Positions 23,288 to 51,662 of a stretch of DNA of 64,000 bases are shown piece by piece. The stretch spans positions 1,606,303-1,670,302 of the forward strand of contig NW_022985446.1 in the NCBI RefSeq assembly GCF_010093595.1, in the 5' to 3' direction. Origin of the DNA: Mytilinidion resinicola (taxonomy: Eukaryota; Ascomycota; Dothideomycetes; Mytilinidiales; Mytilinidiaceae). The notes beneath the pieces were generated by a model. The model was not told the origin of the DNA and searched no databases. It was given only the letters and a program-made list of their open reading frames with translations. Positions within the stretch are counted from its first letter, which is position 1. Each line of letters opens with the position of its first letter. Made by a program: the position numbers and the translations under genes.

Positions 23288-23879
23288 ATGGGCCTCTTCT
23301 CCACCATCGCCAGCCTCTTCCGCCGCGATCAGCAGCCCTTCGTGCCCGTACAAGGTTCCACCACGTACGCGCCTGCAGGCTGGCTCTCAACGCGGCAATT
23401 CAAGCAGATCATCCGGCAACATGGCCGTAGTCTCCCCGCCGACGTCTTCTTCGCCCTACGCCCCTTCGCAGTCGCGAAGAGCGTTTTTCTGGACATCTTG
23501 TACCGGTACCAGTGCCCGAGCGTACGGCAGATGGTGATCAACGTTGATGGAGCTCGGGGATACAACCACGTATGCGCAACACTTTTCCTGCAAATGCAAC
23601 ATCATATACTGACTGTGTGACGCGCAGGCGTTTCATATCGAGCGCCAGGACCTCATCCGCCTCCAACGCACCCTGCCCGCGCTGGAGCGCTTCGTCGTCT
23701 ACGTCTACGCCAAGGGGGCGCTTGTGCGGCTGGTTGAGTGCGACATTGACCAGGCTGGCCGCTGGAGCGTCGAGATCTCTGTTCCTGCCGCGCCGCCGCT
23801 CGCGCTGGGGGGGCAGTTGCCAGTTACTAGACACGACGCTGCAGATTGGCTGCTCGTTCGCGGCGATCTGCCGTTTTGA
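23288..23879 (+). CDS. LRR-like paralog family, member 1 (intact)
   Basis: Two exons, 23288-23569 and 23628-23879, are joined by a 58-bp phase-0 intron (GTATGC ... GCGCAG) and give 177 residues. The N-terminal part has FLDILYRYQCPSVRQMVINV. The intron falls right after this strand-like segment, at RGYNH. Exon 2 encodes AFHIERQDLIRLQ, then LPALERFVVYVYAKG and LVECDIDQAGRWSVEISV. The pattern of a strand after 'CPxL/LPxL', a phase-0 intron, a second 'LxxF-hydrophobic strand' and a tryptophan about 25 residues later is shared with the genes between 32.8 and 51.7 kb. These segments resemble single leucine-rich repeats. Function is unknown. It is the outlying member of the cluster, about 9 kb from the next. 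Confidence 0.82.
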
Positions 23880-24048
23880 TACCGTGGTTTGGCGGACTCT
23901 GGCTAGCAGCTGCGATCTAGACAGTCAGCTGATGGCGGTTGGGCGTGATATGCCTCCTCGTGCTGAGATAGCGATTTGGGGGGTTCGATTCTGGAGTCTC
24001 GGCGATTTGGTTTGGGGGTTCGTGTGAGAAATGGAGGGACTCCGGCGA

Positions 24049-24418
24049 TGAGCTCGAACCTTTACGGGGTGCCGGGGATAGTGGAGCTCGATCCAAACGA
24101 AAACGAGCTCATAGCCAATTTAGAGGCTAGAAACGCGTGTCGCAATCTCCTCGCTTCAAATCCAGTTGATTTTTCAGCCTTTATCCCTTCCTCTGCGAAC
24201 CAGCACTCTATCGCGCGGCTGGTGAAGATGTTGTGGCGCCGTTTGGAGTCCTCTGTAGTCTCAAGACCGATGCGAGCGTGGTGTCACGGATCTGGCGTCC
24301 CATATTAAGCTTGGCCGTTAAGTCTGATCGTCCAGTATATCCAGCCCCAGGCATCACCCCCGGGGTCGAGCTGATTGTACATCCTCCAGTACCAAGCGTC
24401 GGCCTGGTCCGACCTTGA
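24049..24418 (+). pseudogene. Possible frameshifted ORF
   Basis: A plausible N-terminal frame from 24049 (MSSNLYGVPGIVELDPNENE) is followed after a shift near 24230 by a second frame (VAPFGVLCSLKTDASVVSR, then GITPGVELIVHPPVPSVG) ending at 24418. No family is recognised and no intron explains the change. It may be chance. Confidence 0.25.
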
Positions 24419-24529
24419 TTGTGCGTCCTGCTCATTCCCCAAGCTGCAACCCGCCGCTGAGCTTGATTATGTCTCCTCCACCGGGTGATTCGACCGTGGT
24501 CGTTCGAGCGCCGCGCGCTGTAAGTGTGT

Positions 24530-24695
24530 GAGAGGGAGGGGTTGGGGGAAAGGTAAGGCGGCGAGGGATGGGGAAGGTGGAGGAGGGGAGGAGGGAGGAG
24601 GGTCGAGGGGTGGGAGGGGGAGGAGGTCGCAGGGTGGATGAAGAGCCGGTGGCTAGGAGGAGGACGAGGACGAGGACGAGGACAAGGAGGAAAGT
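24530..24695. repeat. Purine-rich low-complexity tract
   Basis: The plus strand is almost entirely G and A (GGGGAGGAGGGAGGAGGG-like runs) and ends in a GGACGA hexamer run. This composition could form triplex or G-rich structures. No gene is implied. Sequence from 24.7 to 26.3 kb shows no recognisable gene. Confidence 0.7.
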
Positions 24696-26330: not shown

Positions 26331-26893
26331 TTGGACATGGATATCCGCCGCCTGAAGTTGCTCGACGCTGCCAAATTCTCCGCAGCAGCTCACCTCCACG
26401 ACGCTGCTTCCTCAACAGCACTCTCGGCCAACGCACTGAAGCAGAAAAAAAGGTCAAGCGTTCTTGAAAAACCGCGCGACCGGAGCACGCTTAATGGTCA
26501 GCAATGCCCATATTTTCTGGAACGATATCTTCGTGGACTTCAAAGTTATACAGCTAGCTATTCTTATGGAGCAGATCACGAAGCTCGCTGAAAAGTATGC
26601 GAATGGCCAGCCTGCGCATGCGGAGAGTAGCATGCTCGCGGGAGCTTCACGGAGAAGAAAGTTAGCGGTCGGTATCGAACTTTCCGGCACGAAGCTCAAG
26701 GGCGTTCCCATCATCGCGCAGCAAACCGAACCAGAGAAGAATCGCCAAGCTCGTCGGTATTCGCGGGAGTTCCACGGAGAGAGCACGGAGCTTGCGCCGT
26801 TAATCTCTAGCATTTCCAGCTTCCAGGTATGCCTTCAACTCTTCTTCTCGCCCCCAGCGCTAACTTGGGCAACAACAGGCGATGGTTCGGTAG
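26331..26893 (+). pseudogene. Hypothetical helical protein with homopolymer frameshift
   Basis: The N-terminal frame starts at 26331 (MDMDIRRLKLLDAAKFSAAA, then SSTALSANALKQKK). At the A-run near 26443-26450 the protein-like reading changes frame and continues FLKNRATGARLMVSNAHIFW, then DFKVIQLAILMEQITKLAEK, ELSGTKLKGVPI and LAPLISSISSFQ. A 52-bp phase-0 intron (26827-26878, GTATGC ... GCTAAC ... CAACAG) leads to a last exon of four codons, AMVR, with the stop at 26893. The protein would have about 185 residues, mostly helical. The shift in a homopolymer makes a sequencing error a real possibility. Function is unknown. It precedes two further plus-strand genes. Confidence 0.55.
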
Positions 26894-27539: not shown

Positions 27540-27599
27540 AGGACACTCCAGCGCACTAGAGAGGGCATCGAAGAGGAGAGGGCTCGTATTAAGGGCGTA

Positions 27600-28562
27600 T
27601 GGTAGCAGCGGCACCAATGCCCTGCATCACAGAGATCAAGCATGGGAAGCCCAGCTCGCCGCCAGCTCATCGGCTTCAAGGACGTCCGCAAAGTCGGCCT
27701 CAGCGCACTGCCCGGTCACCCAAGGAAGACAAGTCTATCGGTGGAGTGTGTCCGCGAAGCTGGACTGCGATATGGAGGTCATGGCTGACTTTGTCACCGC
27801 CATGGCGCATGGAATGTACGAACTCTCCTCCTCCCCTATCCGCTGTGCAGAAATTGATTTTCTGGGAAGAATTCTACGAAGAAGAAAGCTATCGGATGGG
27901 AGACGCCGCGATGCATCAGCGCCGTGCGCAGGATCAGCCCCAGCGCAATCCTCAGCCACCCAAGGAAGACAAGTCCGTCGGTGGAGTGTCCGCGAAGTTA
28001 GATTACGATATAGAGGCCATGACTAACTTCGTCACCGCCATGGCTCACGTAAAGTACGAAATCTACTCCCTTCGAATCTGCCTCGCAGACATTGACATAT
28101 TCCGAAGCATTTCACCAGGCAAAGAGCTCCCGCCCTCATACCGTCCGTAGATGGGTCGCTCAAGTGTTGCGCGTGACTAGACTGCCTTCAACGACTATTC
28201 TGCTCAGTCTGCACTACTTGTCGTCGTGGTTGTCTATGCTCTCTACTGGAGACAGGCCTTCTGAGGTTGACATGTATTGCACCGTTACTGTTGCTTTAAT
28301 TCTGGGCAGCAAGTTTCTTGACGACAATACGTTCATCAACGTCAGCGGCATCGCCGTGGCAATTTTGAATGAGATGGAGACGGAGTGGCTTGTTGCAATT
28401 GACTTCAAGCTCCATCGCGACCCAAGGGCTGGTGTTCCTGGAATGAGCATTGGAAAGAGTACCAGCTGGTTCGACTCAATCGCCCCAACACGCTTATTCC
28501 ATCCATACTACAGTGCAGCGCTAGTGGGTTCTCAACCGAGGCCGGGCCGAGGTCAGCGATGA
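27600..28562 (+). pseudogene. PHO80/PCL-like cyclin remnant
   Basis: The segment VSAKLDYDIEAMTNFVTAMA ... IDIFRSISPGKELPPSYR (about 27990-28140) continues in another frame as RRWVAQVLRVTRLPSTTILL ... VTVALILGSKFLDDNTF ... VSGIAVAILNEMETEWL ... DFKLH, ending at 28562. The 'VALxLGxKFLDDNT' and 'VSGI...NxMExEWL' blocks are typical of PHO80-type cyclins, which bind and activate a cyclin-dependent kinase in nutrient signalling. The frame change near 28140 breaks the gene. The usual few residues between DDNT and VSGI (an 'xxTWxE' stretch in relatives) are missing. Upstream, the first part is duplicated in tandem (see the repeat at 27700-28130). It may be a pseudogene or carry sequencing errors. Confidence 0.6.
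27700..28130 (+). repeat. Tandem duplication of a cyclin exon segment, 240-bp offset
   Basis: The block starting CCCAAGGAAGACAAG at 27718 recurs at 27958. Both copies encode a version of SAKLDxDxExMxxFVTAMA. Copy 1 has two extra bases (GTGTGTCC against GTGTCC), so its upstream and downstream parts are in different frames. Copy 2 leads into the rest of the cyclin. Confidence 0.75.
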
Positions 28563-29414: not shown

Positions 29415-29454
29415 ATGCGGCGGCCTCTCAGTGACGCAGCGGTCGTAGGCGCTG

Positions 29455-30030
29455 GGCTGGCCGCTCCCTGGGCCGCATTCCCGCCACCACGACCTCGCGA
29501 CGTGCCGCCGGAGATCGCGTATGCGTATAGAGTGCCTCTGAGCTCTTCGGTCCCTCCGAGAATATCAGCGACGGCTACAGCTGCTCAGTGCGGGTCGGCT
29601 CGTGGCTGCGGCGGAGGCGGAGGCGGAGGCGGAGGCGGAGGCGGCTTGGAGTCGCGATCTCTCGACGCCGCGGCCACACAACGTTGCGCTGGGAATAGAC
29701 AATGGACTTCGAAAGTGATAGATACCGTGAATGAGATCGTAGAGGCCGCTGATGGGGCGCAATCCCAGTGATGAATCCCTTGCGGGCGCTCGGGGGGGCA
29801 AGGCTGGCCGCTTCCTGGGCCGAATCCCCGCCACCACGGGCTCGCGATGTGACGCTGGAGATCGCGTAGGTGTATAGAATGCCTCTGAGATCTTTGGTCC
29901 TCCGAGAATATCAGCGACCGCTGCGGCTGCTCAGTGCGGGTGGGGGTTGCGGTCGCGCCGAAGGAGGCCGGGAGTCGCGATTTCGCAACGCAGCGGCCAC
30001 ACGATGCCGCGCTGGGGATGTAGCATGGGA
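29455..30030. repeat. Direct duplication, offset 347 bp
   Basis: The block GGCTGGCCGCT(C/T)CCTGGGCC recurs at 29455 and 29802, followed in both copies by a matching 230-bp GC-rich sequence (GGAGATCGCGTA, GAGAATATCAGCGAC, GGCCACACRA). Copy 1 also contains a hexamer run at 29609-29644. Confidence 0.8.
29609..29644. repeat. GGCGGA hexanucleotide microsatellite
   Basis: About six copies of GGCGGA lie inside duplication copy 1. The second copy lacks the expansion, so it arose after the duplication. Confidence 0.9.
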
Positions 30031-30134
30031 TAGAGATGCACTCACGCTCCTGTTGTTACTATGAAGGTGCTCGAAGGCATACCGCTCCTCGGTGAAGGAC
30101 GCGGGCGGCGCGGTCTAGGGCGGACAGCCGCCGC

Positions 30135-30950
30135 GCGGGCGAAAGCTCAACGCCATGACTGCGGAACGGCAGGCTGAGGGTAGGAGAAGCCAATATGGCT
30201 TAACGGGCCGCCTTACGATGCTATGGGATTGTAGACAGATTGCCCTCTTTTCAGTGACGGATGGCGCTGCTCGTTGCGGGTGCCATAGCTGCCAGCCACG
30301 GCCCTGAGGCGGGCGAGAGCTCAACGCCACAACCATAGGACGGCAGGCTGAGGGTCGGAGAGGGCTAGAGAGCTCGGCCGGTCGCCATATGTTGCTATGA
30401 GGCTGCAGGAAGGGTAATGGCTTCTCAGTGACGGACGACGCTGCTGGTTGCGGCTGCGACATCCGCCAGGCATGGCCGCGAGGCGGGCTCGGCAACACGC
30501 GTACGCCGGGAGACGGCGCTGGATGAAGAGTCACAGAGTGCATCTTAACGAGTCTCAAGTCACAGCAAGCAAAAGGGAAGGGTGCGGGCATGATGGCGGG
30601 AAGGGCGGCGGGGCCACGCAGGCCGTCATGGCCAGGCCTGAGGCCACGCAGTCGGGCAGTCTGACGGCATGCGCGCGTACACAACCTCAAATATGAATCC
30701 GGACCATTGGAATGCTTCCTTAGAGCAAGAGCAGAACGAGCAGCAAGCCTCTGTGGCGTCTAGCGGCCGGCCAACACCAAGCAGTCTGAGCAGACCTGAG
30801 GCCGCGTAGCCGGGCAGCCTAACGGCGAGCGGGCGTCAATAGCTTCAAGAAATGAGCGGACAGCTCGAATGTATCATCGAGGCAAGAGAACAACGATAAG
30901 CAAGCTTCAGTGGCGATGAGGTGCCGGTCAACACCACACGTGTTGCGCAC
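30135..30950. repeat. Tandem duplications with 159- and 174-bp offsets
   Basis: The word GAGGCGGGC recurs at 30306 and 30480, and GGGCGARAGCTCAACGCCA at 30137 and 30311; both offsets are 174 bp, with shared GGACGGCAGGCTGAGGGT and CTTCTCAGTGACGGA. A second pair, CCTGAGGCCRCGYAGYCGGGCAG, occurs at 30637 and 30796 (159 bp). The minus frame 30115-30690 simply reads through the repeats. Confidence 0.7.
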
Positions 30951-32779: not shown

Positions 32780-33632
32780 CTACACCGCTGAAACCCCATC
32801 TTGAATCAAGCAAAGTAAAAAACTGCATTTAGGCCATCCTCTGTCCCTCAAACAGCCCTCAATAATAACACCCTTCTCCAAAAGTTCTTCCTGTTGACCC
32901 AGAAATGAAAGGGTTGATGCTGTAGTGTCTGCCGTCAGGCTGGCGGGAGGAGTCCAGGAGGGCCAGGTGAGCCTGTCTACTGCATCAGCAGCCGGGCAGG
33001 ATGAGTGAGATTTGAAGGCAGCTGCCCATACCTTGAGCTCAGCGCCTGAACAAGGTACGGGTGTGTTCAGTTGTGGAGGGCGCCATGGGTTGCGCGACGT
33101 AGAACTCACAACGCAACGGCGTCAGTCCTGTACCTCGGAAGTCCACCACCAGGGTCGAAAGCGCAGGGAGGCACCACTCGCGGTACCGATCGACGACGGG
33201 CTGTTCCAGCGAATACGCCACCGCGTCGAGGAAGCCTTGGGCGGCGCGCTGAAACAAAGAGACGTTAGTTCAAGTCTAGGGGCGTCTGAGAGGCAAGCTA
33301 CGTACCTCCTGGACGACCTTTGCGCTCAGCTCAACCACTATCTCCAATCGTTCCAGGCGATGGAGCCTGCTAGCCTTGAAGGGCTCAAGATATGAAGGCG
33401 AAAGGTGCGGCCAAGCATCCTCGCCAGGGCGAAGAATGACCCTTACGAATAGAGTGGTCTTGTGTGCCAGAGCGCCGCTCGCGATGTAAGTTCGAAGCTC
33501 TGGCAGAGTGACTTGTTGCATAGTCTTAATCCGCGTTTTGACGGGCAGTGGCCCTGGGCGTCGTGTCATGGCGGCCGCAGCGGGGGGTGAGGTGGGCAAA
33601 GGAGTGGGAGTATTGTGAAGTTCAGCGGACAT
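32780..33632 (-). CDS. LRR-like paralog family, member 2 (three exons)
   Basis: The exons are 33306-33632, 33134-33248 and 32780-33045, joined by a 57-bp phase-0 and an 88-bp phase-1 intron, and they encode about 235 residues. Exon 1 ends with a strand-like LHRLERLEIVVELSAKVVQE. Exon 2 has FLDAVAYSLEQPVVDRYREW and CLPALSTLVVDF. The last exon ends SFLGQQEELLEKG ... LRDRGW, which resembles the C terminus of member 12 at 50.8 kb (LLGERLLAALGPGGYIRG, then LFRGY), a protein of nearly equal length. The alternative is read-through of intron 2, giving a stop at 33039 and about 181 residues. The start MSAELHNTPTPLP at 33632 is preferred over the upstream Met at 33725 because family members begin with short Ser/Thr/Pro leaders. 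Confidence 0.6.
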
Positions 33633-34299: not shown

Positions 34300-34902
34300 C
34301 TAAGTAGAGGTCGTAACGGGAAGGTAGGGATCTATGGCGGTTGTTAGTGGCATACAAAGACATTTGGCGGTAGGAACTACTCACGATTGAGGGTATCGAG
34401 AACCTGCTCCCAGGGGCCGTCGGCGATGCGCTCAAAGATGACAGAGGTGTTCTGGATCCTGCCATCCTTGTACCCAATGAGGATGATGTTGACATGTCGG
34501 AGGTTCGAGCCGATTGCTGTGAAGAGGCCAATCATCGGGTCTTTGAGGCGCGGGAGGAAATCCAAGGTGACCTGTATGCATCAGTCGTTGGGCCGGCAGG
34601 CTGGAGAAGGCTGGGTCGCGTACAATGTTGTCATCCGCCGTATACCCTACAATGAGCTCCAGCTCGTAGACGTTGTCACTGAGGGGAACAAAGAGAGACA
34701 GGTAGTCTTCAGGGCACGTGAGGTTATCTATCCATACCCCGAGCCGGACGGTCTCCAGGCGTCGAACCGACGGGATGGCCACATACACTCTGACCTGCTG
34801 CTTCAACAGCAGCTCGTTGCCGGACACGGCCTGCAACACAGCCTCTGTGGAAAGGGAGTTAACGCTGGTGTTGGGCGTAGAGCGGGTTGCTGAGGTGGCC
34901 AT
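34300..34902 (-). CDS. LRR-like paralog family, member 3 (intact)
   Basis: Exons 34624-34902, 34385-34571 and 34300-34331 give 165 residues. Intron 1 is 52 bp, phase 0; intron 2 is 53 bp, phase 1. After a Ser/Thr leader, exon 1 holds two strand-like segments (RRLETVRLGVWIDNL, VYELELIVGYT). Intron 1 falls just after the second. Exon 2 begins VTLDFLPRLKDPM and has the hallmark LRHVNIILIGY followed by IFERIADGPWEQVL. The order 'FLP', amphipathic helix, 'LxxxxIxLI', then 'F.R....W' is the same as in members 4 and 9. Nothing indicates a catalytic role. A protein-interaction surface is the simplest guess. Confidence 0.8.
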
Positions 34903-35183: not shown

Positions 35184-35725
35184 ATGGTGGACTCAAACAC
35201 CCGATCACCCTCTCGCGCGCTCGTTGATGACCTCCTCGATCAGAGTGTCCTTAGGCTGGTCATCTCCGGTACTCCACTCTCCCTGCGACAGTTCAATGAT
35301 TTCTTGTCCATGGTGCAGGTAAAGACGTGGGCTATGATCGCCGTCGCTGTCGTCATTACTGACCTCCAGCGCCAGAGGGACTACTTGGCGCCCTTTGAGA
35401 ATCTCGGAGGAGGCAGCATAGTTGCGGCAATCAACTTGACGGTCAACTACTCTACGACTCTGGAAGTGGTAGAATACCCGGGCGTTCCGCTTCTTAAGTA
35501 AAGCTACTAACAACATTTGCCCAGTTCTCGACTGCTTTCTTGCCCGCTTGCAACGACTTTGTAGAAGCTCTTAACGAGTTCTGCCCCAGACTGTGCGTCT
35601 TCACGATCATCCTACTGAACAACCGGCATGGATCACACCAGAAGACCGTAGCCCTGTACCGTCGACACCTTTCTGAGCAGATATGGGACCAAGCTGGCTT
35701 GTTTCACGAGGGTGGGTGTGCCTAG
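35184..35725 (+). CDS. LRR-like paralog family, member 4 (intact)
   Basis: Two exons, 35184-35468 and 35525-35725, joined by a 56-bp phase-0 intron (GTAGAA ... CTAAC ... GCCCAG), encode 161 residues. Exon 1 has LAPFENLGGG and a strand INLTVNYSTTLEV just before the intron. Exon 2 starts FSTAFLPACNDFVEALNEFC and continues PRLCVFTIILLNNR, then ALYRRHLSEQIWDQAG. The 'FLP ... CPRL-F-I-I-L ... YRR ... W' arrangement and the intron position match member 3. It is transcribed divergently from member 3, with about 280 bp between the two start codons. Confidence 0.8.
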
Positions 35726-36630
35726 GATATTCCCCTTTATTCTGGTATAGTCGGATTGTTTAGTCACGCCTTTTCCTCAGCCAATGCCACCGGCAGCTCT
35801 TACAAGCTTGTGAACTGTAGGTCGAAACAGCCCTATTCCCCTGGCATGCCTTGCTTCTAACTATAGGCAGCTTGTCGCAGAACTATACTCTATACGGGCT
35901 TGGAGGGGATTTCACGAGATCTTCTGTGTCCAATCGGGATGTGAGACGGAGGGCCTCGTCTAGTCATGACTCTGGGTACTACGGCTGTTGAAGTCCTTGT
36001 CTTCTAGGGTATCTCCGAGGCGCTCGTTCAATGAGGTTCTCTACCTAAAGGAAGGTGGGGTTTTATGGAAAGCTTCTATGGATTGGTCGCGGTCTTCTAC
36101 TGTGTTTGCTAAGTAGAAGATATGCCTGAGGCGTCTTGGTGTTCCGAAACGAATGATCAAACTCTATTAACATCTTAACAGCTTCTTTGACTCCATAGTC
36201 AATCCAAAAGGGTTCTAGCGGCGTAGTTTGCAGTGCATGCACTATTACATCACATGAATTAGTTTTGAGATGGTCGTGAAGCAGAACAGGACTGCGTTCC
36301 TATTTCCAAAACCTGGAAGACATCCGTATGACTTCGGGCGTTTTGGATAGAATACAGAATCTACCAGCTTCATATCCATCCTGTCACGCCTCAATCCATG
36401 CAACCTCCCCTCAAAACCCGCAGAGAATGCCCACGATTCAAGAACAAACAGCCGAGCCACTGTTCTTACCCTCAGTCCTTCAGTCTCATCCCGGACAGCC
36501 ACCATGATGAATCAACATAGGTGTTGTTGGCACCGAACATACACTTTTGCCTTCGAATCGACCGATCGTTTGGCAGCTGCGCCGTCCATTCAATGTGTCG
36601 TGCCAGGGGGTGTCGAGGTGAGCATGAAGC
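35726..36630. other. No gene recognised
   Basis: Intergenic region between member 4 and the 3' end of member 5. A minus frame at 36245-36505 is in the wrong place and frame to belong to member 5. Confidence 0.45.
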
Positions 36631-37055
36631 CGCTCAGCGAGAGAAAAAGGCTTCAGCGGCGCTCCAGAAGTCCGCCGTCGCCTTGCGCACCCAGGAGAGG
36701 CCTCGCTCGTAGGTCGTCTCCGTATCAGCCACCTCCACCCACTTCCTGGACCAGACACCGCGGCGCATATGGCGAACCTGGGGTGGGACACGAAAGCGCT
36801 TCCACCAGCGCTGCCACTCCCGCTCTTCTCCCTCCAGGCAAACCACATCTCGTACAGGTTGGTGCAGCCCTGCTGAACGAGCCGCTCGATGTCGTCGATG
36901 GTGGGTAGCTCCTGGGCGAAATCGACGGAGTCGAGGACCGCTCCTGGGTCTTCATAGGGTTGGGTATGGTGGTTCAGCATGAACTGCCGCCTGTGTTAGC
37001 GCTGCTAGGTATAGGACTGTCGGTAGAACTCAGCATACCGACATGACGCCGTAGA

Positions 37056-37063: not shown

Positions 37064-37258
37064 CAGAGTGGGGATCAATCAATCAATCAACTTTGACGTC
37101 TCCAAGTTGATTGATTGCTTCGTTGAACAGGCTGTGATTGATTTGATTTGATTTGATTAATTTCTGAGATGCTCAAGTTGAGTTGATGAGATTGATACTT
37201 TTTGACCCCCAAGTTGAATTGATTGGTTTGATTGATAGATTGATTGATAAGTTGATTA

Positions 37259-39638
37259 CTACTTAGGAGGTTTGATGCCAATTCGACGCCAGGAGCGTAT
37301 AGATTGCAGAGCACTAAGTAACTCAGGCTTCATATTAAGGCGTCGTACGCCCAGGAGATCGCCAAGTTCGCTGAAAATTCTCTCACAATCAGCTGAGGAG
37401 GCTGGGATGGAGTAGATATCAAGGGCTAGCTGGCCTAGAATAGGATAGCGATCTCTTGTGATAACCCAGTACTGAATAGGGTCCTTCGCTAGTGGGTTGT
37501 CCTGTTTCAGAGTTGGCTCGCGCTTCCACCTCTCGTACTCGTCGTCAACAGTTTCCTCCATCTCCTGCTTGCCCTCCTCCATAGAGTTCCTAAGGAAGTC
37601 TGCTCGGTCGTTTGTAGGGCTTGTTCGACAGCGTTTTGCAGGCCTCACATCAGGAGACAAGGTAGGAGATGCTGCGCCAGCAGCCTTTGCAGCCACCTTA
37701 TCCTTATGTGCCTGCCACAGCAGCCGGAAGGAGCTATAGCCATTTGAAAGCCAGTTCTTATACAGATATGGCCCATCGCGCTTTGTATTATGATCCTTCG
37801 GCACCTTCCATAGCCCCTCAAGCGCGTGTTTGTATGCTGGATAAAGTATTGTAGCTGCAAAATAGATAGGGGTGTCTTCTGTCTTCCCGTAGTAATCCGC
37901 GAGCTTCTTATGGGCGGTATTAACGTTAATAACTAAGTGATCTTCGGGTGCATCTAGATCCTCGTAGTCAATAGCCTTAAGCCTCTCCTTCTGCTCCTCA
38001 AGGGCCGAGAGTAGCCATTCGAATGTGATGAGAACTTCCCAAATAGCTCCGTAGCTACCAGCTGAACCTCTGCCCTGTAGCCACGTTGTTGCATCCTTAA
38101 ACGGCTTAAGCAGCTGCTTATACTCTGTAATTGTTGCCCAATTACCTGCATTTAGCCCTCGCTCCTCAATAAAGCACCGCGGTTTCTCCTTCTTTGTATC
38201 CTTGCGCCGAGATGCTGCTTCAATATCGTATTCCTCGAGCTTCATGTGTATATACGCGTCGAGAGGGCCTTGGAGCTCGCAGGCGCGCTCAAAGCAATCG
38301 TAGTAAGAGTTCCACCGAGTTCTGACAGGCTTAATAAGCTCCTTTGGTTTATAAGATTCGTTGCGGCGCTTCAAGTCCTCTGCCTGCAGCTTAATGAACA
38401 GCTCTCGGGCTTATGGAGAGGCGCTAATAGATAATATAACGTCGAATAGCACCCCGATAGGCCCGGCTTTCCTCCACTCTGCCATCAGCAGTTCTTCTTC
38501 CTATATTACTGTTAGCGCAATGTAGAATAGCAATAAGATTAGAGACGTGATTTTACCCGTATATTCACGTCCATGCTCTTAAATACCTCCTTATCCTTAC
38601 CCCATATAATTGCTTAGGCAGCTAAGTTGAGAATATGGCAGGTACAGCGTAACCGACGCTGGGAGATGCTGAACTCGAACTCATCGGCCATCGCTATTAA
38701 AGCAGTGTCGTTGTTTATGGCGTTGTCAAGTACAAAGTAGCCAAGGCGCTCAGCATCAATTTTAAACAATTGTAACGTTGAGCTGACTATCTCCGCGATG
38801 TTCTTGCCTGAGTGCTGGCCTAGAAGAACAGGCAGGCCTAACAAGTAGTCCTCTGGCCGGCCATTCTCGTTTAGATGATGTACACATATCCCAGTGAGCG
38901 CACGCTTGTTGCCAACTGAAGTCCAATTATCGAATGATATGTGGATGAGGCTAGTCGCCTGCTGGAGGTGTTTNNNNNNNNNNNNNNNNNNNNNNNNNNN
39001 NNNNNNNNNNNNNNNNNNNNNNNNNNNNNNNNNNNNNNNNNNNNNNNNNNNNNNNNNNNNNNNNNNNNNNNNNNNNNNNNNNNNNNNNNNNNNNNNNNNN
39101 NNNNNNNNNNNNNNNNNNNNNNNNNNNNNNNNNNNNNNNNNNNNNNNNNNNNNNNNNNNNNNNNNNNNNNNNNNNNNNNNNNNNNNNNNNNNNNNNNNNN
39201 NNNNNNNNNNNNNNNNNNNNNNNNNNNNNNNNNNNNNNNNNNNNNNNNNNNNNNNNNNNNNNNNNNNNNNNNNNNNNNNNNNNNNNNNNNNNNNNNNNNN
39301 NNNNNNNNNNNNNNNNNNNNNNNNNNNNNNNNNNNNNNNNNNNNNNNNNNNNNNNNNNNNNNNNNNNNNNNNNNNNNNNNNNNNNNNNNNNNNNNNNNNN
39401 NNNNNNNNNNNNNNNNNNNNNNNNNNNNNNNNNNNNNNNNNNNNNNNNNNNNNNNNNNNNNNNNNNNNNNNNNNNNNNNNNNNNNNNNNNNNNNNNNNTC
39501 GTCGTCGTTCGTGGCAGGTGTTTCGACGTGTTCATTCGTGTTGACTTCGGCGCGCATAGAATTAACCTTACGGGGAGGTTTCTTTCGATTTGCGCGTGCG
39601 ATAACTTCCTGCTGTACGTTCTGAAGGTTCTGATTCAT
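37259..39638 (-). pseudogene. hAT transposase, interrupted
   Basis: The start is at 39638 (MNQNLQNVQQEVIARANRKK); the N-terminal part is lost in the gap. After the gap come the first catalytic region (LIHISFDNWTSVGNKRALTG), HSGKNIAEIV, and the second aspartate in LGYFVLDNAINND with the CTCHILNLAA block. A 56-bp intron (38501-38556) separates KSMDVNIR from EEELLMAEWRKAGPIG. The C-terminal half has RTRWNSYYDCFERACEL and the hAT dimerisation region with the catalytic glutamate (YSIPASSADCERIFSELG). TAA codons at 38614-38616 and 38411-38413 interrupt the frame where glutamine (CAA) is plausible, pointing to C-to-T RIP change. The native protein would have moved the element by cut-and-paste. Confidence 0.9.
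38974..39498. other. Assembly gap (525 N)
   Basis: A run of N inside the hAT transposase gene; open frames across it are artefacts. Confidence 1.
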
Positions 39639-39933
39639 TGCTGGGTGCGATATTGTACAGAGGTGGTATGGTGTTGGACGCGTTGATGTGAGTTAGGATG
39701 AAAATCAGGGTTAGGAGACTGCTTAGTAAGCACTTCTGCTAGGTGGGCTCTCTATAGGATACTCTATCTACGCTCCGCAAATAGGAATCAATCAAACCAA
39801 TCAAATCAATCAATTTGATGCCTTGAAGTTGATTTGATTGATAAAATCCACCTCTTCGGATTGATTGATTGATTTGGTTGAACCAAATCAAATCAATCAA
39901 TCTATCAACTTAAGTTGATTGTTCCCCACTCTG

Positions 39934-39941
39934 GTTGATAT
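39934..39941. repeat. hAT target site duplication, right copy (GTTGATAT)
   Basis: Exact match to 37056-37063, immediately outside CCCCACTCTG. Confidence 0.95.
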
Positions 39942-40339
39942 TCGAGCTCAGCTCGACGCAGACGTGGGCAGTGGCGGAGGAAGGCCAGGCGAGCGTAGAT
40001 CGTAGAGCCAAGATGGGGGTCAAATTTGATGGTGGCTTTGAACTCTTCGTGCTTGTTGCCGCTCATGTCCATGTAATCTTCCAGGTCGTCGAGCTCCCAG
40101 ATAGCCCCATCCTTGAGGCCAGCTTCGAAGGCGCGGAGGTGGTCGGGGTCCTGCACATCGTAGATGATGTTGGCTTTTGGAACGTCAATGCTGTCTGGGA
40201 GATATTGGGGAGGTCAAAATGTGTGTGGATCTGACGTGTGGTCGGTGCGCGTGAAGCGATTACGCTGATGTTGTTGACACTGGACATCAACGACAAGACC
40301 AACATTCACCTCAAGCTAAGCAAGCACCTATCCACTAAA

Positions 40340-42600
40340 CTTTTTGGGGGCCATGTTCATACGCTCAAGACACCTCTGAGACTATCTTTTTGGAGTTTCT
40401 ATGATGTCAAGTCCTACAGGCTCTGATTCCAGTCCGGCATTCTCGGGGCGTGCTCATACTCTTGAGATACCCCCGGATGTATTCATTTCATGAAGCTATG
40501 ATGTCAAGTCCTACAGCTTTTAATTCAAGTCTGGGATTCTTGCGGCGTTTTCCTCCCTTTGAGACACCCCTAGACGTAGTCATTTTCGAACACCTATGAT
40601 GTCAAATCCTACTAGTTTTGATTCAGGTCTAGGGTTCTCGCAGCGTTTTCATACTCTTGAGATACCCCTGGAGTTACTGTGGTGGAAATCCTATGATCTA
40701 ATAAACTGCAGGCTGCATATCTAGTCTGGGGATCTGGAGGAACGCTCGCAATTTTGAAATACCCCTGGAGCTATTGCTTTGAGAATTCTAGGATGTTAAG
40801 GACTACATGTCGCATTTTGAGCCTGAGAATTTAGGAATCGCAAGACCAATTGCATTCCCTTGTGCTTATATATTGATTGATCTCCTTTGAAACCTTTGGA
40901 GGTGCGTGCGGATCCTTGAGTCACCTCAGGGGCTATTGCTTCTGAAATCAGACATTGTAAAGGACTACACCTGGCGTTCCGAGCTGGAGAAGTCTGGAAA
41001 TTCAAGACATACTGTAGCGTCTCTCGTCTGGAAGTTGGCCAACGTTATCGTAACTCCTGGGGGTACGTCCGCTTGAGCCACCTCTAGAGGTATCACCTTT
41101 GAAAATATATGATGTAAAGGGCTGCACGTCGCAATCCGAGATGGATAAGTTGGGACACTCAAGAGGAACTGTAATATCTCGTCCCTGTAAATTGATTCAC
41201 ATCTTTCGAGCCCTTTGGAGGTACTCGTGTAGCCTGGAACCAACTCTGGATGTATTGTCTTTGAAATCATGTGATGTAAAGGGCCCTACATCATATTTCG
41301 GGATGGAGAATTTAGGAAGCTCAAAACGTACCTCATCATCTTGACCTGGAAATTGTTTCATGTCCTTTGCACTTCTACTGATACGTGTATATGTTTGAGC
41401 CACCTCTGCATGTACTCTGTTTCGAAATATACGATGTAAAAAACTGTATGTCGTAATCCGAGACGGTGAGCTTGGGAAGCTCAAAACATACCGCAGTACC
41501 TCGTGCCCGGGAACTTATTGCTGTTCCTTGTACTTCTGGGAACTCGCGCATATCCTTGGGCCACCCCTAGAGCTATTGTCCTTAAGATCTTACGATGCAA
41601 GGGACTGCACGTTGTAACTCAAAGCTACGGCCTCGCAAGACCCGAAACTTCTTACAAGGTTTTGAGGCTCGAATCGAAAAACTTTTTAACCAGCGTGGCT
41701 TGAAAAGGCCATTTCTCTCAATGCAGCAAAGGAACACGCGGTTATGCTGTACGCACCCACTCCCATCCCAGACGAGGACGTCATAACACCTTCCCTTCGA
41801 CTTAAGACTCACGACAGTACTTGGAGCAAAGTTTTGTCCCGTATACCAGGCACCATAGAAAGAAGAATCAGAAAGTCGCAGCAACCCCGAGGCGGCATTC
41901 CCACTTTCCACTTACTGAACAAGCTGTCGTCACAAACAGGCCGACAGCATGAAGGTACCCTGCATCTTTCAAAGGCTGGTGATAATGAAGACTCTGGAAC
42001 GCCTACTACGGAAACACTTCTAGGGGTACGGGTATATCCTTAAGACACCTTTCGACTTATTCTCTTTCAAAATCTAAAATGTCAAGGGCTACACCTTTGA
42101 ATTCAGGACTGTAGCTTTACAAAACGAGAAACCTATTACGACTTGCTAAGGCTTGAATTGAAGAGCTTACTATTCAGTTTCTGCGAGTACGTATATACCC
42201 TCAAAACACCTCTAGACCTACTATCACAGAAATCCTACGATGGAAACGACTACACGCTGTAAATCAGAGCTACGGTCTTGCAAGACGAGAAACCAATCAT
42301 AACTTGTTGAGGCTCAAATTGAAGAGCTTGCTGTCAAACTCCTGGGGGCGTACGCATCCCCTCGAAGTGCCCCTGCACCTATGATCTTGAGGAACCTAGG
42401 ATGTCAAGGTTTACAGGCTGTGGATTAGGTCTTAGAAACTACCGTACTCGAGACTATGAACGAGTAGCATCTCCCATGTCTTTCGGGCAAAGCGTCTGTA
42501 CCTTTTAAGTCCCCCTGGGCCTCCCACCATTGGCAAACCTATAATGTAAAGAGCTACATGCTCTGGTTCAGCTCCCGATCATGGAATTGCCCTGGAGTCC
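40340..42600. repeat. Tandem array with two unit lengths (97 and about 160 bp)
   Basis: Units align on GATGTMAAG(T/G)SCTACA-like anchors. Positions 40403, 40500, 40598, 40695 and 40792 are 97-98 bp apart. From there the anchors at about 40953, 41111, 41273, 41433 and 41594 are 158-162 bp apart. After a gap of 484 bp (about three units) they continue at 42078, 42239, 42400 and 42543. The long unit contains an extra block of about 62 bp, with a CTCGTCYCTGGAAATTG-like word and GGGTACGTG. All units share GAGMCACCYCTRGA and a CTCAARAC-like block. The segment at about 41680-42010 does not resemble the unit and may be an insertion. No conserved ORF is present. Confidence 0.8.
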
Positions 42601-43031: not shown

Positions 43032-43635
43032 TCAGCGAGAGAAAGGCTTCGAAAGCATGTTCTTGACGGCAACCTTAGCCTGCCGGGCGTTGGAGGAGGG
43101 GTCCGGGACGACAGTCCACTTGTTTAAGAGTACACAGCGACGCATGGTGACGGTCTGTGGAGCGTGGTTGATGCCTTCGCCGCCGGTCATGTGAATGGTA
43201 AGCTCAAAGAGGCGCTTGGAGTCTCTCCTGACAAGTTGTTCGACGTCGCGCGGCGTAGGGAAAAGCTGGCTGAAGAAGATCTGGCAGTGGCCTTGTCGGC
43301 GCTGAATCTGTGCTCTTTGTTAGTAAGCCGCTTCTTTTGGCCCCCGATTGAAAAGGTTGACTTAATTGCTGCTGATGAAGGACGCATTGCACCTCCGCCT
43401 TGCCCAGCCGGCGGCAGTGCCTTAGCGGCGAGAGGCGGGAGTAAGGGGTTGGGTCGTCGGTGACGTTGACAATAACGGAGACGGTAAGTTGCTCTCGGTG
43501 GACACCAGCGGCTCCCAGGTAGTCGCTAAGATTGACGATTGATACCACGACGCGGTGCTGGATGCAGTATTCGAAGGAGTCACGGTTGTCCTCTGCATAA
43601 CCCGGGGGCCAACCAAACGAGAAGATGGTGGACAT
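43032..43635 (-). CDS. LRR-like paralog family, member 6 (intact)
   Basis: Two exons, 43393-43635 and 43032-43307, with an 85-bp phase-0 intron (GTGCAA ... CTAAC ... GCACAG), encode 172 residues. Exon 1 has VNLSDYLGAAGVHREQLTVS and then YSRLSPLRHCRRLGKAE, matching NLxDYLxxxGxxxE and ARLxxLRHCPRLxxAE of member 5. Exon 2 has FFSQLFPTPRDVEQLVRRDS, LFELTIHMTG and MRRCVLLNKWTVVPD, and it ends FSR, again like member 5 (MRRGVWSRKWVEVAD, ending FFSR). The start MSTIFSFGWPP is chosen because the upstream part of the open frame is not conserved. An alternative donor nearer QQQL would break the frame into exon 2. Confidence 0.78.
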
Positions 43636-43639
43636 TGTA

Positions 43640-44720
43640 GACGTAGGATTGATGTAAAAAGAGGCTTCTGTGGATATCAACCATGGAAGAGCAGCTGGAG
43701 GGCCGCTCGACCGCGCTTTTGTCGGTGAACGGCGAAGGAGAACACCCGCGCGCAAAGTTGAGAGAGCTAGCCAGCTCCGAGCACACGCAGGAACACGAAA
43801 GCTGGTGTCGCCAGCAGTTCGGCTTCGCATTGCAAGCTTTCTCCGCCAACGGAGCGCGACTCTTCGAACTGCGGCTGTTCGATACTGGAATTGGTCGCTC
43901 GTCCGACTATCTGAGAGTCTTCACCGCCAACTTGAAGGTGTCTTAGCTCTTGAACGCCCTGCGGATCAAGACCATTTTGGACTAGTTACATGTTAATAAT
44001 GCTACGTATCGGCTCGCATCCTTGGTATTTCTGGCTGACAGGTTCGAATCAGCCCAGGAAAGTCGACGAAGTGACAAACCCTGCGGTCGCCCACATCCTA
44101 CCTCGCAAGGAGGAGATGGAAGGAATGGGTGAGGAATGCTGTCCGAATCCCCTGTTTATGAGAGCCACTATGCCCTGCCAGGCAGGAAAGAAAGAAGAGA
44201 TGGTGTTCGTGCGGGAGTCCATCATAAAGGGGGAGTGAGGACCTGTCAAAGTATCAAGGCGACGGCGAAGAAGCTCATAGTCAGGGTCTGGGGTTGATGT
44301 AGCGAGCTGAAAAATGCTGCAATCTGTATCTTACGGTTCGCATCTGATCACGCGTCAGTCGAGGGATCGATGGATTAAGTGCACAGACTTTTTGTCGTTG
44401 CTACACGCATAGTTTGTCCTTCTACTCCAAAAGATGACAGCACGGGAGAGTCGTATTCAGTCGGGTCCTTTAGAGGAAGCTATTCATCTGTACCACATTC
44501 CATGTTCCGCAAGGCACCTCAAATACAGCGTATGGGGAACCTTCGTGGTTTTGCGTCTCGGCCTGTGGTGTATGAAGAGCAATGTTCTTCGCCTTCCTTT
44601 GGCTCCCCGACAACGCTGATGCCACAGCTGAAAGAATCGATGGAAATTAGATCCTCCCACATGCCAAACAATACTCGAAGAACTGTACAGAATGTAGCCC
44701 TCCCTGGACCTCCACAACAA
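43640..44720. other. No gene recognised
   Basis: Only short frames occur between members 6 and 7. Some plus-strand frames mirror member 6 or its upstream region and lack their own support. Confidence 0.45.
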
Positions 44721-44725
44721 AACAA

Positions 44726-45322
44726 CTAACCCAGCATAATGACACCGAAGGCTCCTTGCGAAGCAGGAATGTTGTTGGTCCACTCCTCGTCCTGCTCATC
44801 CTCCTCGTCCTCCTCGTCATCTTCGTAAGCATATTCGTACGAGAGCTCGACCCGCCACCACCTGGCGTGGTACTGGTCCCGATGAGTGATCGCTTCTGCA
44901 TCGGCCTGACCGGTGGCGGAACGATGATATGAGGTCGCCGCAGTCTGACGAGACAAGGACCGTTCAGCATGATTCGCAGCACGTCATCGTGAGTGGGCAG
45001 GAGGTCCTAAACAATGAAGCCTGTCAGCCAACCCCATCGCCTTTTCCGAGCATTCCGGTGTTTACTCACGTAGTTGGGCCCCGAGTCTACCGCGCGGACC
45101 TCGAGGGTCAGCTCCTCTAGGTTCACGCTGAAGCACTTGCGGAACTGATACATGTAATCGAACGAGTCGCTTGCCCCTTCGGTCAGGATTTTGAGGTGGC
45201 GGCTGGACGTGGTCGGAGCTGGCGAGGCAGACTAGCCAGATGAGGAGGACGTCCTCGTCCATCTCTAATCCATCTTCCTCGTACAACAGGGCGTGTTCCC
45301 TGCGGAACCTGTGACGAGACAT
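44726..45322 (-). pseudogene. LRR-like paralog family, member 7, frameshifted
   Basis: The start at 45322 (MSRHRFRREHALLYEEDG) runs to about SSDHVQ. The family-like reading then changes frame to SRHLKILTEGASDSFDYMYQ and FSVNLEELTLEVRAVDSG. A 63-bp phase-0 intron (45007-45069, GTGAGT ... GCTGAC ... TTTAG) leads to exon 2 with DLLPTHDDVLRIMLNG, then another frame change before ITHRDQYHARWWRVELSYEY and an acidic tail (DDEEDEEDEQDEE), with the stop at 44726. The 'LLPTxxDV', 'W' and strand pattern are those of the family. The two exons total 534 bp, a multiple of three, so one insertion and one deletion would explain it. This is decay or assembly error. Confidence 0.6.
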
Positions 45323-45834: not shown

Positions 45835-46455
45835 TCATCGCTTCACAAATCTGACCCTCCGCACAGACTTCTTGACAGCCTTGAAGAGCTTCGCGAAGGC
45901 CTCCCGCTTCTTCAAGTACCGTACCTGGACCCATTCGCCGTCATCCCGATGTCGACGGAAGGACGCACGCGCCGTAACCCCAGGGGTTTCTCGGATCAGG
46001 ATGGAGAAAGTGGCCAGATTCGGAGCACACTGCCGCGCCGTTTCCGCAACCTCCGCAATAGTGGGGAGCAGATGCCGAGCTGGGTTGCGCAGCAAGATCA
46101 AGTCACGGAGGTTCTGATATACGCGGTTAGTCCGGTGTGGTTTTCAAAGGCTCTCAAATCAGCTAACCTTCAGATCTTTGGAGGTGTAGAGCCACAATTC
46201 GAAGTGCTCAAGGCCGACACAGTTCAGATTGGTAGCAAGATCGCTGAGGTAGTCCGCAGCAATCTGAATGCCGTCGGCCCAGATCTTGGCCTCGAGCTTG
46301 CGCAGATACTGGAGGTCGGTTGCCTTGTGGCAAACTTGGCGAAACTCGTGTCGACTCAGGATGCACTTAGCAATTGCACGGTCGAAGGCGGTGTCTTCGA
46401 GGGTGACAGCGTAGAGAGACTCGGTAAGGTCTATTTCGAATGCTGCTTGAGCCAT
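45835..46455 (-). CDS. LRR-like paralog family, member 8 (intact)
   Basis: Two exons, 46168-46455 and 45835-46113, with a 54-bp phase-0 intron (GTTAGC ... ACTAAC ... TATCAG), encode 188 residues. Exon 1 has DRAIAKCILSRHEFRQVCHK, ADYLSDLATNLNCVGLEHFE and LWLYTSKDLK at the splice junction. Exon 2 has NLRDLILLRNPARHLLPTIA, then CAPNLATFSILIRETPGVTA, RRHRDDGEWVQVRYLKKREA and a basic end VKKSVRRVRFVKR. It is the best guide to the family: exon 1 and exon 2 each contain one 'C..L..F-strand' unit, like two leucine-rich repeats. The remnant at 48.3 kb (member 10) is its closest relative. Confidence 0.82.
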
Positions 46456-47030: not shown

Positions 47031-47033
47031 TAG

Positions 47034-47503
47034 CTACTGGCGACGACGTTCAGGCGAGACTTGGATCTCCCAAAGTCCTTCGCCTGCGCGGATGAAGGTA
47101 CCGACGACCGCACCGCCCTGCTTCCGCTCTTTGTCCATGATCGTGATATCGAGGTGGCTCAGGTGCGGCAAACTTCGGTTCCTCAGCCCCTCCACGTCGA
47201 ATATCAGCGGCATGAGATTCTAATAGTCAATGTATTAGCCAAAGTTGTTAGGAATTTGTGTGCCGCTGATGTACTCACGCAGCTTTTAGCCGAGTTCTCT
47301 GTCTCAATATTGAGAACGAGACGCTCGACGACCTCGTTGCGGACGTTTTCGAAATGCTGGAGGTAATCTTTGCACCACACAGCTCGTTTTGCGAAGAGGT
47401 TCAAAGCAAGAGTCGTTTCTTGACGGTCTTCGCGGAGGAGATCTGCTAGCGGCATCTTCGTGGTCACCTCCACAAGCACCTCAGCTCCATCCCTACCAGC
47501 CAT
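47034..47503 (-). CDS. LRR-like paralog family, member 9 (short, intact)
   Basis: Two exons, 47279-47503 and 47034-47219, with a 59-bp phase-0 intron (GTGAGT ... CCTAAC ... ACTATTAG), encode 136 residues, the shortest member. Exon 1 has MPLADLLREDRQETTLALNL, YLQHFENVRNEVVERLVLNI and ends at SAKSC. Exon 2 has NLMPLIFDVEGLRNRSLPHL, SHLDITIMDKERKQGG and FIRAGEGLWEIQVSPERRRQ. The 'LPHLSHLDITIM ... F.R...G.WE' block aligns with member 3 ('LRHVNIILIG ... FERIADGPWE'). Frame and splice sites are clean. Confidence 0.8.
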
Positions 47504-48261: not shown

Positions 48262-48527
48262 TCAGCGTCCTCCGAATCTAGACTTATCGAGGGAAGCCTT
48301 GACGGAGTTGGAGAGAGTACGGAGACTCATTGGCTTCTTCACAGCCTCCATTCCTTCCATAACTGGTTGTTGAAATCAAAGGCGAAGGCCGCCCGGGCGG
48401 TGACTCCGCTTCTACCCATTACTATAACTCTTATGCGGGCTAGTGTCGTGGAGCATCTGGATGCAAGCTGTGCGATTTGTGATATGCCGGGGAGCAGCTG
48501 GCGGGCGGGACGTCGCCGCAGCAGCTA
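48262..48527 (-). pseudogene. LRR-like paralog family, member 10 (exon-2 remnant)
   Basis: The minus strand encodes RQLLPGISQIAQLASRC, then LARIRVIVMGRSGVTARAAF and NQLWKEWRL, followed by a stop at 48339. After a frame change it continues VKKPMSLRTLSNSVKASLDK, with a stop at 48262. This matches exon 2 of member 8 block by block: LLPTIAEVAETARQC, LATFSILIRETPGVTARASF, W, KK....., and the basic tail. A typical acceptor context (GTCCCTAG) lies just upstream, but I find no exon 1. It is a truncated or decayed copy. Confidence 0.7.
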
Positions 48528-49158
48528 GGGACAGGTATGTGCAAATCGGAGAAGGTGAATACAAAGGCTGCCAGAGGTTTTCATCCGTTGAAATATATCT
48601 GATGCTCGCTGCCGTGAAGGTTTAGAGGGAGCGAAGCTGCGCCTGCTTGGACTCTCACCAGAAAGTTGATTACGGGAGGCACCGGGAACTTCCCCACATG
48701 TGTCACCCCTCCTCAGGTCTCACGGCGTTGGTTGTGATTCTGGAATTACATTACCTTGAGGGTAACGAAATTTCCCTGTTTTACGGTAGACAAAATAAGA
48801 TTGAGACAGTGATTATACAGAGAAGTAATTGAAGATCTGTCCTATCAAGCCGATTTACTCGTTCGGAAGACTACAAGAATGTATAGGAGCTGGGTATCAA
48901 TGATAGTCCCTTTTGGAGCTGGTTGCCGTGTCTCCTTCTTAACAAACCCAGAACACTCCTCCTGTGTTATTGTTGCGGCCGTGCTGGAACATCTCCCAGT
49001 ATGAGGGGAACAGAATCGACAATCAGCAGTTGAAAAGGTTCAGTGCCGGGCGAAGCTTCTTACCTCTCTATGTGGGAGTCTTGCACTTATGCTGTAGTTC
49101 CAAAAACCAGATCCATCACCTATGCGCCAAAATTATCAAGCGTGGCTACCATGTACTC
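48528..49158. other. No gene recognised
   Basis: Short frames only. A missing exon 1 of member 10 should lie near 48.55-48.9 kb but could not be identified. Confidence 0.4.
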
Positions 49159-49834
49159 TCATCCCGTATAAATGAACCGACGCCATCTCATTGACGCGCG
49201 GATGTCGTAGTTGTTTGCCCAAATCGTAAACGTGACTCGGTAAGGAGGATACATTAGGTCGAGATTCTGTATTGTTCGATCTTCCTCCCACTCATTGCCG
49301 AAAGGTGTGGGAAAGAGGGCGGTTGGTTCGTAGTCAATTGGTCGAGTCTGAGAAGAGCGCGCGTTGATGCTTCCTAGGCGGGGGTCAGTGGGTGCAATCC
49401 CGCGGCGAATGATGATGTCCGCACTGTCCTGGCCGCGGGAAGCGACCTCGATACGCAGCCAAAGCAAGGTTTTGGAACATTGCGGAGCCATGATGTGCGG
49501 AATTCGCCCAAGGACGGCAGGAGGCCCTGCTGCTACGTTAGCTAATCAGATTCCGACATCCCAAGCTCTCTGTGTATGGCGGCGTATGTAATCTTACCTG
49601 AGTTGTATGTAAGTAACCTGCCGCATAGACCACGACATGAAGGTGTGTAGCTGAACTGTTGACATGAGGTTTGAACAAATCTAGCCAGTCGATGGCCACC
49701 TCGATGTTTGCTAGCAGGACAAGGCTGACATGTTCATGATGGTGACCCTTTACGAAACCCTGCAAGCGGGCAAGGAACACATAGCTTGCACAGATGCCGA
49801 GAATGAGGATGCAGTACAGGAGCAGAAACCACAT
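49159..49834 (-). pseudogene. LRR-like paralog family, member 11, frameshifted
   Basis: Exon 1 (49598-49834) has an unusual hydrophobic start, MWFLLLYCILILGICASYVF, which could be a signal anchor or a chance extension. The family-like EVAIDWLDLFKPHVNSSATH and LHVVVYAAGYLHTTQ follow. A 65-bp phase-0 intron (49533-49597, GTAAGA ... GCTAAC ... GTAG) leads to QQGLLPSLGEFRTSWLRN, the expected 'LLP' start of exon 2. A frameshift near 49480-49520 follows, and the other frame continues CSKTLLWLRIEVASRGQDSA and VTFTIWANNYDIRASMRWRR, with the stop at 49159. The intact splice sites but broken exon suggest recent damage or a base-calling error. Confidence 0.62.
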
Positions 49835-50836
49835 CTTGAGGTCCTTGAGGACGCAATGGAATGGGCCTGAGGATGCAAGGCGGCGAGCTTCCTTTGCGCG
49901 GGACTGCGCGTGGTGCGGTCGTCGAATTGCTGGAGCGGATGATTAGAGTTCTCTTCGGTGTGTAGCGGAGAAGTATTTCGAGCTTAGAGGATGACGCCCT
50001 ACAATTGTGAGTTTGTGGATGATACCGAAGTCGCAAAGCTGCCTTCTCGGAGAAAAAGAGAGCGCTTTGGCCAGTGCGCACCTCTCAGCCAATCACATGA
50101 GGTGTACCCCCGCCACCTAGGAGTAATTCTACATGCAGCGCGTGAAGCAAAGCTTCAGGCTTCTTACAGAAAAGAAGTAATATCATTATTATACTCTTAG
50201 TGCAAGCTGCGCTCTCTATACACAAAGTCCTAGTTAGAGAGTGACTTGAACTACCCCCCTTCTCTCACCGGACAAACCAAACGCCAGAAGGAATCTGGTA
50301 CCGCGCACTGACTTGCTGTCCACCTAGACTACCAGTCTACCAGATACATAAACAAAGGCCTCTGACTGAGAAATATACAGTGCAGCTCATACTTAGTCCT
50401 CCGGGCCTGATTTTGAGGCGAGGAGAGATTGTCACAGAAGATACCCAGATCTGCAGACCGCAAAACTCAACATTGTCGCTGATTTTACTTATCCCTTTCA
50501 AGTCTCTTAAAGCGCGTCATTCAACGAGCAAACACCCAAACACAAGGTCATGATTTATATGCTCCTAGATAACGTACGCTCGATGAATCAGTAGAAGTAG
50601 TTGGGGTGTGTCTTGAGGTGTTTTGCGCCGAGAGAAATCACAACTCCAGTCCGAAGTGTCTTGGAAATGGCATAGTCTATTGGTACTTTTCGCATGCTTA
50701 GGGCACCTCTAGCGGCTGTATCAAAGTGGAAAAGCTAACAACTCCGATTTGCACAGCTTGCCACATGTCATAGTTTCCAGATCCAGCTCGATGGCCAAGG
50801 GCACCTCTAACAACCTCAGATTCCACCTTCGCCAGC
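49835..50836. other. No gene recognised
   Basis: Intergenic region between the divergent members 11 and 12. It is AT-richer, with only short frames. Confidence 0.5.
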
Positions 50837-51662
50837 ATGTCGGAAACATCCACACCCCCTCCAGCCCCTCGCCAGACGATGAGAGAGCGCAGACGGGAGG
50901 TTTTGGGCTGGGCAGACGCCTACGACGACTCTCTGACCTTCAAAGACCTGGAAATATTCTTCACCATCCCGGAAGTCAAGGCGTGCGAGACGATCAAGAT
51001 CTGCTACGAGCTTCCAATCCCCGATGAGTACCCCGACTCGATGGAGTTTTCAACTACTTTCGCGGGCATCATGGGCCCCTTCACCGCCCTACACAGCGAC
51101 GTCCTCCGCCACATCGAAGCCAAGGTGCTATACGAGGCGAAAAAGAACCACGTAAGAACCCGAATATCCTTGGTTCATTGCTTCGCAGGCCTCATATTAG
51201 TCATATAGTTTCCCACAAGCATGTTGGCTGAGAGCAGCGCGTGGCTGGCGGAATTTGTGGCCTCCATCAGCACGAGTCTCAGAAGCATCAAGCTGCTCCT
51301 CATTCAAGGCAATCAGACAGACCAGCCCGTGTTGTTCAGCTACCGAACTAAGGCTGAATACTATAATTGTGACACCGCGGGCGGGGCGTTGGGCCGTGCA
51401 GGCCTAGGGTGGCGGGAAACCATCACCGTGAGGTCGTCTCTGGACGACCCTCCGGAAGATCAGGAGTGGAGCGATGTGTGTAAGTCATGCTCAGAGCTGT
51501 GTACACCAGCTACTTACTAATGTAGCACAGTTCCTCGTCGTCGTCAAGTTCAGGCAGCGCCGAGGCGGCGTAACGTCTGAGAGTTTGTTGGGGGAGAGGT
51601 TGCTGGCGGCATTGGGGCCTGGTGGCTACATTCGGGGGGAATGGTTGTTTAGGGGTTATTAG
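50837..51662 (+). CDS. LRR-like paralog family, member 12 (three exons, intact)
   Basis: Exons 50837-51151, 51209-51475 and 51531-51662, with phase-0 introns of 57 and 55 bp, encode 237 residues. Exon 1 has LEIFFTIPEVKACETIKICY and ends at AKKNH. Exon 2 starts FPTSMLAESSAWLAEFVASI, then LRSIKLLLIQGN, and has a longer Gly-rich insert (GGALGRAGLGWRETI). Exon 3 encodes FLVVVKFRQRRGG and ends LLGERLLAALGPGGYIRG ... LFRGY. The donor of intron 2 is GTGTGT rather than the GTAAGT four bases later, because only the former keeps the frame. Length and exon count match member 2. Confidence 0.8.

Follow-up and report, generated by a model that had tools for sequence, protein, structure and literature searches.

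A cluster of fast-diverging genes for small proteins, with decaying copies beside them, near a scaffold end of Mytilinidion resinicola

Mytilinidion resinicola (Dothideomycetes) is a saprobe on conifers. Here we describe twelve neighbouring loci, denoted A to L, in a 64,000-bp stretch of its genome (the window, C10:1606303-1670302 in the 47.1-Mb, 44-contig genome; positions below are window positions unless given with the prefix C10). A preliminary description of this DNA had proposed twelve related genes, and once their models were rebuilt from the sequence all twelve were located where it had placed them. Its count of seven intact copies, four frameshifted or split copies and one with exon 2 only needs revision. 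Eight members (A, B, C, D, F, H, I and L) are intact, being open from ATG to stop as two- or three-exon models. J does consist of exon 2 only, and G and K are indeed broken in frame, but E is not frameshifted; it is split by a 2870-bp hAT element. Members A, D and L lie on the plus strand and the remaining nine loci on the minus strand, with E to K forming seven consecutive loci of the same orientation and C and D arranged head to head. The loci are as follows, with protein lengths in amino acids (aa).

23288-23879, plus strand: member A, 177 aa, exons 23288-23569 and 23628-23879; identical to BDZ99DRAFT_521146; outlying, a member by architecture only
33039-33632, minus strand: member B, 178 aa, exons 33632-33306 and 33248-33039; BDZ99DRAFT_521150 has 157 aa, with a later Met start
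34300-34902, minus strand: member C, 165 aa, exons 34902-34624, 34571-34385 and 34331-34300; identical to BDZ99DRAFT_521151
35184-35725, plus strand: member D, 161 aa, exons 35184-35468 and 35525-35725; identical to BDZ99DRAFT_521152
36837-36995, minus strand: start of exon 2 of member E, on the far side of the hAT element (the open frame 36489-36995 was used in pairwise comparison)
37064-39933, no strand assigned: hAT transposon inside member E, 2870 bp, terminal repeats CAGAGTGGGGANCAATCAA; 38974-39498 masked
39935-40144, minus strand: part of exon 1 of member E, severed by the hAT element
43032-43635, minus strand: member F, 172 aa, exons 43635-43393 and 43307-43032, 85-bp intron; no deposited protein found
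44700-45322, minus strand: member G, frame-broken; the open piece 45013-45231 has the helix-strand pattern with which exon 1 of other members closes; marginal
45835-46455, minus strand: member H, 188 aa, exons 46455-46168 and 46113-45835; no deposited protein found
47034-47503, minus strand: member I, 136 aa, exons 47503-47279 and 47219-47034; no deposited protein found
48342-48524, minus strand: member J, exon 2 remnant
49190-49834, minus strand: member K, exon 1 open over 49834-49598, exon 2 out of frame; a member by architecture only
50837-51662, plus strand: member L, 237 aa, exons 50837-51151, 51209-51475 and 51531-51662; BDZ99DRAFT_521160 has 240 aa, with three extra residues at intron 2

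The gene structure is uniform. In all eight intact members the first intron is in phase 0, runs from GT to AG and measures 52-85 bp, just as had been described, and a YTNAY branch-like site begins at most 20 bp from the acceptor; the first intron of K is likewise in phase 0 by its model. A conserved tryptophan had also been noted. It is present in exon 2 of all eight, although in B it precedes the strand instead of following it. The plan that the members appear to share would be helix-strand-helix-strand, the phase-0 intron and then helix-strand-strand, usually with a tryptophan-bearing tail. Such models could in principle be spurious, drawn through decaying repetitive DNA, given that three of the eight intact ones were not found as deposited proteins and that a hAT element and a degenerate repeat array sit among the loci. 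We regard this as extremely unlikely, because five intact models do have deposited counterparts (A, C and D identical, B and L with small model differences), the introns follow the consensus and the composition is that of coding DNA. The G+C content of third minus second codon positions (GC3 minus GC2) is 0.26-0.34 in seven of the eight intact coding sequences and 0.14 in B; for 1946 random stretches of 480 bp the 95th and 99th percentiles are 0.14 and 0.21. Moreover, the similarity between C and D (BLASTP, 27% over 153 aligned positions, E 5e-10) keeps the frame across both exons.

At the DNA level no similarity between members was found in a blastn self-comparison of 23-52 kb; their relatedness is seen in the proteins. 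Pairwise z scores were calculated against 200 shuffles for 68 comparisons, made up of 28 full pairs and 40 pairings of five broken pieces with the eight intact members (eight of these 40 used the E exon-1 piece read in the wrong frame). Six full pairs reached z 4 or more (C-D 17.7, C-L 8.6, C-I 7.9, D-I 6.3, D-H 5.4, B-F 4.0), as did three comparisons with broken pieces (J-H 19.7, E exon 2-F 5.8, and J-F 4.1, with 1 of 200 shuffles as high). G-F is marginal at 3.1, with 2 of 200 shuffles as high. Queries run genome-wide agree, with F matching exon 1 of E (E 0.002, 29%) and H matching J (E 7e-7), and a profile built without J detects J at E 1.6e-5, with G at E 0.8 and K at E 12 in the same search.

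A reciprocal profile comparison, suggested in the preliminary description, was carried out by leaving out each whole protein in turn, and seven of the eight intact members were recovered. None of 1000 shuffles scored as high as D (44.2 bits), C (36.5), I (24.8), H (15.1), B (8.1) or F (5.8), and for L (4.0 bits) one did; the E values of H and I were 0.0009 and 1e-6. When the exons were left out one by one and compared with 5207 real open frames as controls, exon 1 of B, C, D and I and exon 2 of C, D and H outscored every control, exon 1 of H was matched or beaten by five and exon 2 of I by one. Thus B, C, D, E, F, H, I, J and L are joined by sequence, G marginally so, while A and K share the gene plan only, which narrows the earlier claim of a single family of twelve.

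Beyond the cluster no relatives were met. Protein queries of the genome with H, D, C, L, B, A, F, I and the G piece, in which fairly close relatives would be detectable, gave matches inside the cluster only. In a database of about 5.8 billion proteins, searches likewise limited to fairly close relatives recovered the window's own genes alone and no outside homologue at E <=1 or E <=10 (3 matches among 7995 scored at E <=1; 1 among 52 and 2 among 5159 at E <=10). The family may be restricted to this lineage.

The family had been called leucine-rich repeat (LRR)-like, a label that must stay tentative. When the eight intact members were run through hmmscan against Pfam-A, LRR families were absent up to E 1 (weak hits may be filtered), as was the F-box up to the same limit; NACHT, NB-ARC and HET were likewise without a match, and no match of any kind passed its cut-off. 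In the internal-repeat test, unit 2 against unit 3 scored inside the range of 100 column shuffles. Structure prediction, another check proposed earlier, was run on A and C. The predicted model of A bears a weak resemblance to F-box LRR solenoids, as it does to other folds, and leans towards a parallel strand/helix solenoid; that of C is too weak to read. In these predicted models A resembles C in element order and intron place, with a low-confidence strand in C that spans the exon border. A rival reading is that the proteins are short F-box/LRR-type solenoids minus the F-box, acting as free ligand- or substrate-binding LRR modules. We consider this unlikely. The members are much shorter than the F-box/LRR proteins COI1, TIR1 and FBXL3 and have no F-box or LRR profile match. 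The general idea of recognition by a repeat protein has an analogue in fungal NOD-like receptors (NLRs), in which no LRR motifs were found according to the available part of a survey (PMC4986451), but the members differ from these in having no NACHT or NB-ARC match.

None of the eight intact members has a signal-peptide-like N-terminus by a hydropathy proxy (the best 15-residue stretch starting within the first 25 residues, with a maximum of 1.17), which argues against classical secreted effectors. The proteins are probably intracellular and alpha/beta. A family of effectors unrelated in sequence and similar in structure would account for extreme divergence with retained architecture, and for the adjoining transposons. 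It is nonetheless very unlikely here, since the hydrophobic N-terminal segment is missing, cysteines are few (1-4 per intact member, counted in C and L on exons 1 and 2 only) and the organism lives on conifers as a saprobe. MAX effectors, small secreted beta-sandwich proteins, form such a family in the available portion of their description (PMC4624222). The M. resinicola proteins are like them in that relatives lie at the edge of sequence recognition with the plan retained, and unlike them, on the same partial account, in looking alpha/beta and lacking signal-peptide-like starts.

Copies in the cluster have been lost in several ways, in E by transposon insertion. Its hAT element carries terminal repeats at both ends, is flanked on both sides by an 8-bp target duplication (GTTGATAT) and encodes the hAT dimerisation domain of a transposase (PF05699, E 3e-16). 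The terminal motif occurs at 32 places in the genome, 28 of which form 14 inward-facing pairs 2.8-3.2 kb apart, suggesting a recently active hAT family. Between E and F lies a degenerate array (40330-42593) of 14 units of about 100-160 bp each, of which no convincing copy was seen elsewhere in the approximately 259 kb scanned (best other E 0.25).

Repeat-induced point mutation (RIP) was considered as the cause of divergence and rejected: every 2-kb bin across the window is RIP-negative, as are the eight coding sequences, so RIP leaves no sign in the family itself. Strong RIP signatures do occur in AT-rich blocks to the left of the window (L010, L012 and L013; composite index 0.77-1.11) and at the contig start (L021-L023; 1.27-1.48).

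We read the cluster as a lineage-restricted, locally duplicated family of small proteins (136-240 aa) under birth-and-death evolution, with a rough probability of 0.6. Nine related members lie together and have diverged extremely, the intact ones with frame and intron place retained, and several copies in the cluster have been lost. We are quite confident of the anatomy and evolution of the family as described.

Several results weigh against this reading. A and K fail every sequence test made: neither reached z 3 with any other member, A scored -1.4 bits in the whole-protein leave-one-out analysis (187 of 1000 shuffles as high), and its exons 1 and 2 were matched by 2285 and 2424 of the 5207 control frames. 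Controls also scored as high as exons 1 and 2 of L (19 and 442), exons 1 and 2 of F (680 and 23) and exon 2 of B (227). The confidence of the predicted models is low, with a pLDDT (predicted local distance difference test) of 64.3 for A, which is middling, and 54.7 for C. Because homologues are found through shared 5-residue words, the search would miss orthologues that have drifted as far apart as the paralogues. The search that yielded 3 matches among 7995 missed B and D, though both are deposited, and the failure to return F, H and I is thus weak evidence of their absence.

These gaps leave room for two or three unrelated look-alike gene groups, namely a core of C, D, H, I, J and L, a group of B, E and F, and the unrelated A, G and K. 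A and K have no pairwise link, G is linked marginally and to F only, and J-F is the sole pairwise bridge of B, E and F to the core. Such a division is improbable, although no more so than the solenoid idea above, because the intron phase is identical in all eight intact genes and B and F outscore all 1000 shuffles when left out. In addition, a pattern of strand, phase-0 intron and LPxL-strand matches solely C, D, I and A in about 259 kb, though it was written post hoc from the members, and B, F, H and L escape it. Together with the likeness of A to C in the predicted models, this match lends some added support to the membership of A.

Under birth-and-death evolution of a single family, local duplication would generate copies, which would then diverge past nucleotide recognition while retaining reading frame, intron place and hydrophobic pattern, with some lost through frame breaks, truncation or transposon insertion. 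Of the earlier interpretation, birth-and-death evolution fits; its LRR part is doubtful, and its effector part is disfavoured by the missing signal-peptide-like starts. The proteins may be binding or recognition modules with fast-changing exposed faces, but that they are small binding modules at all is doubtful. If they are, the most likely setting would be either recognition or a role linked to stress or reproduction, as proposed for other lineage-specific fungal genes.

The contig ends 5394 bp past the window, placing the twelve loci about 18-46 kb from the scaffold end. Its last 5.4 kb holds one CCCTAA, zero TTAGGG and no telomere repeat array; a subtelomeric position is possible. Two HET genes (C10:1505092 and C10:1578569) lie about 124 and 51 kb to the left of member A. 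With at least 151 HET matches genome-wide this distance may be due to chance, and we claim no association. In Neurospora, according to the available part of the source, lineage-specific genes aggregate near telomeres, cluster with HET-domain genes and are responsive to environmental as well as reproductive cues (PMC10684091). The M. resinicola genes resemble these, within that partial account, as orphans in which few or no known domains are recognised, located near a scaffold end with HET genes at the distances given, and differ in being mostly one recognisable paralogous family and in the missing telomere array. The orphan clusters of Zymoseptoria tritici, as presented in the accessible part of their report, comprise regions present in one but not the other of two isolates that were compared, and are enriched in putative effectors (PMC5082898). 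They share with the present cluster the grouping of orphan genes with mutational decay; isolate-uniqueness and effector enrichment set them apart (PMC5082898).

Elsewhere in the window, a Tc5/pogo-type transposase lies on the minus strand at 10389-11462 (PF03221, E 3e-7 in the piece 10831-11462; 10397-10817 masked). On the plus strand, a 371-aa open frame at 4545-5660 has a weak 2EXR match (E 0.016, below cut-off), and 28053-28562 has a weak cyclin-like match (PF00134, E 0.001, below cut-off), beside which a 138-bp stretch is duplicated at 27694 and 27934. Imperfect direct repeats occupy 29455-30488 (88% over 141 bp; 73% over 181 bp).

The boldest form of our reading would make these fungal proteins small intracellular alpha/beta (LRR-like) recognition modules of a family not described before, encoded near a scaffold end in an intron-anchored tandem array that diversifies as fast as non-self recognition genes. 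We think this quite improbable; if true, fungi, whose NLRs lack LRRs so far as surveyed, would have a counterpart to free-standing LRR receptors. The cluster offers a compact case of paralogues that retain intron place and structural pattern after near-total loss of sequence similarity, beside decaying copies. With a sister genome it would allow the rise and erosion of a fungal orphan family to be timed, and it serves as a warning that a gene taken for a 'single-species orphan' may be a disguised paralogue.

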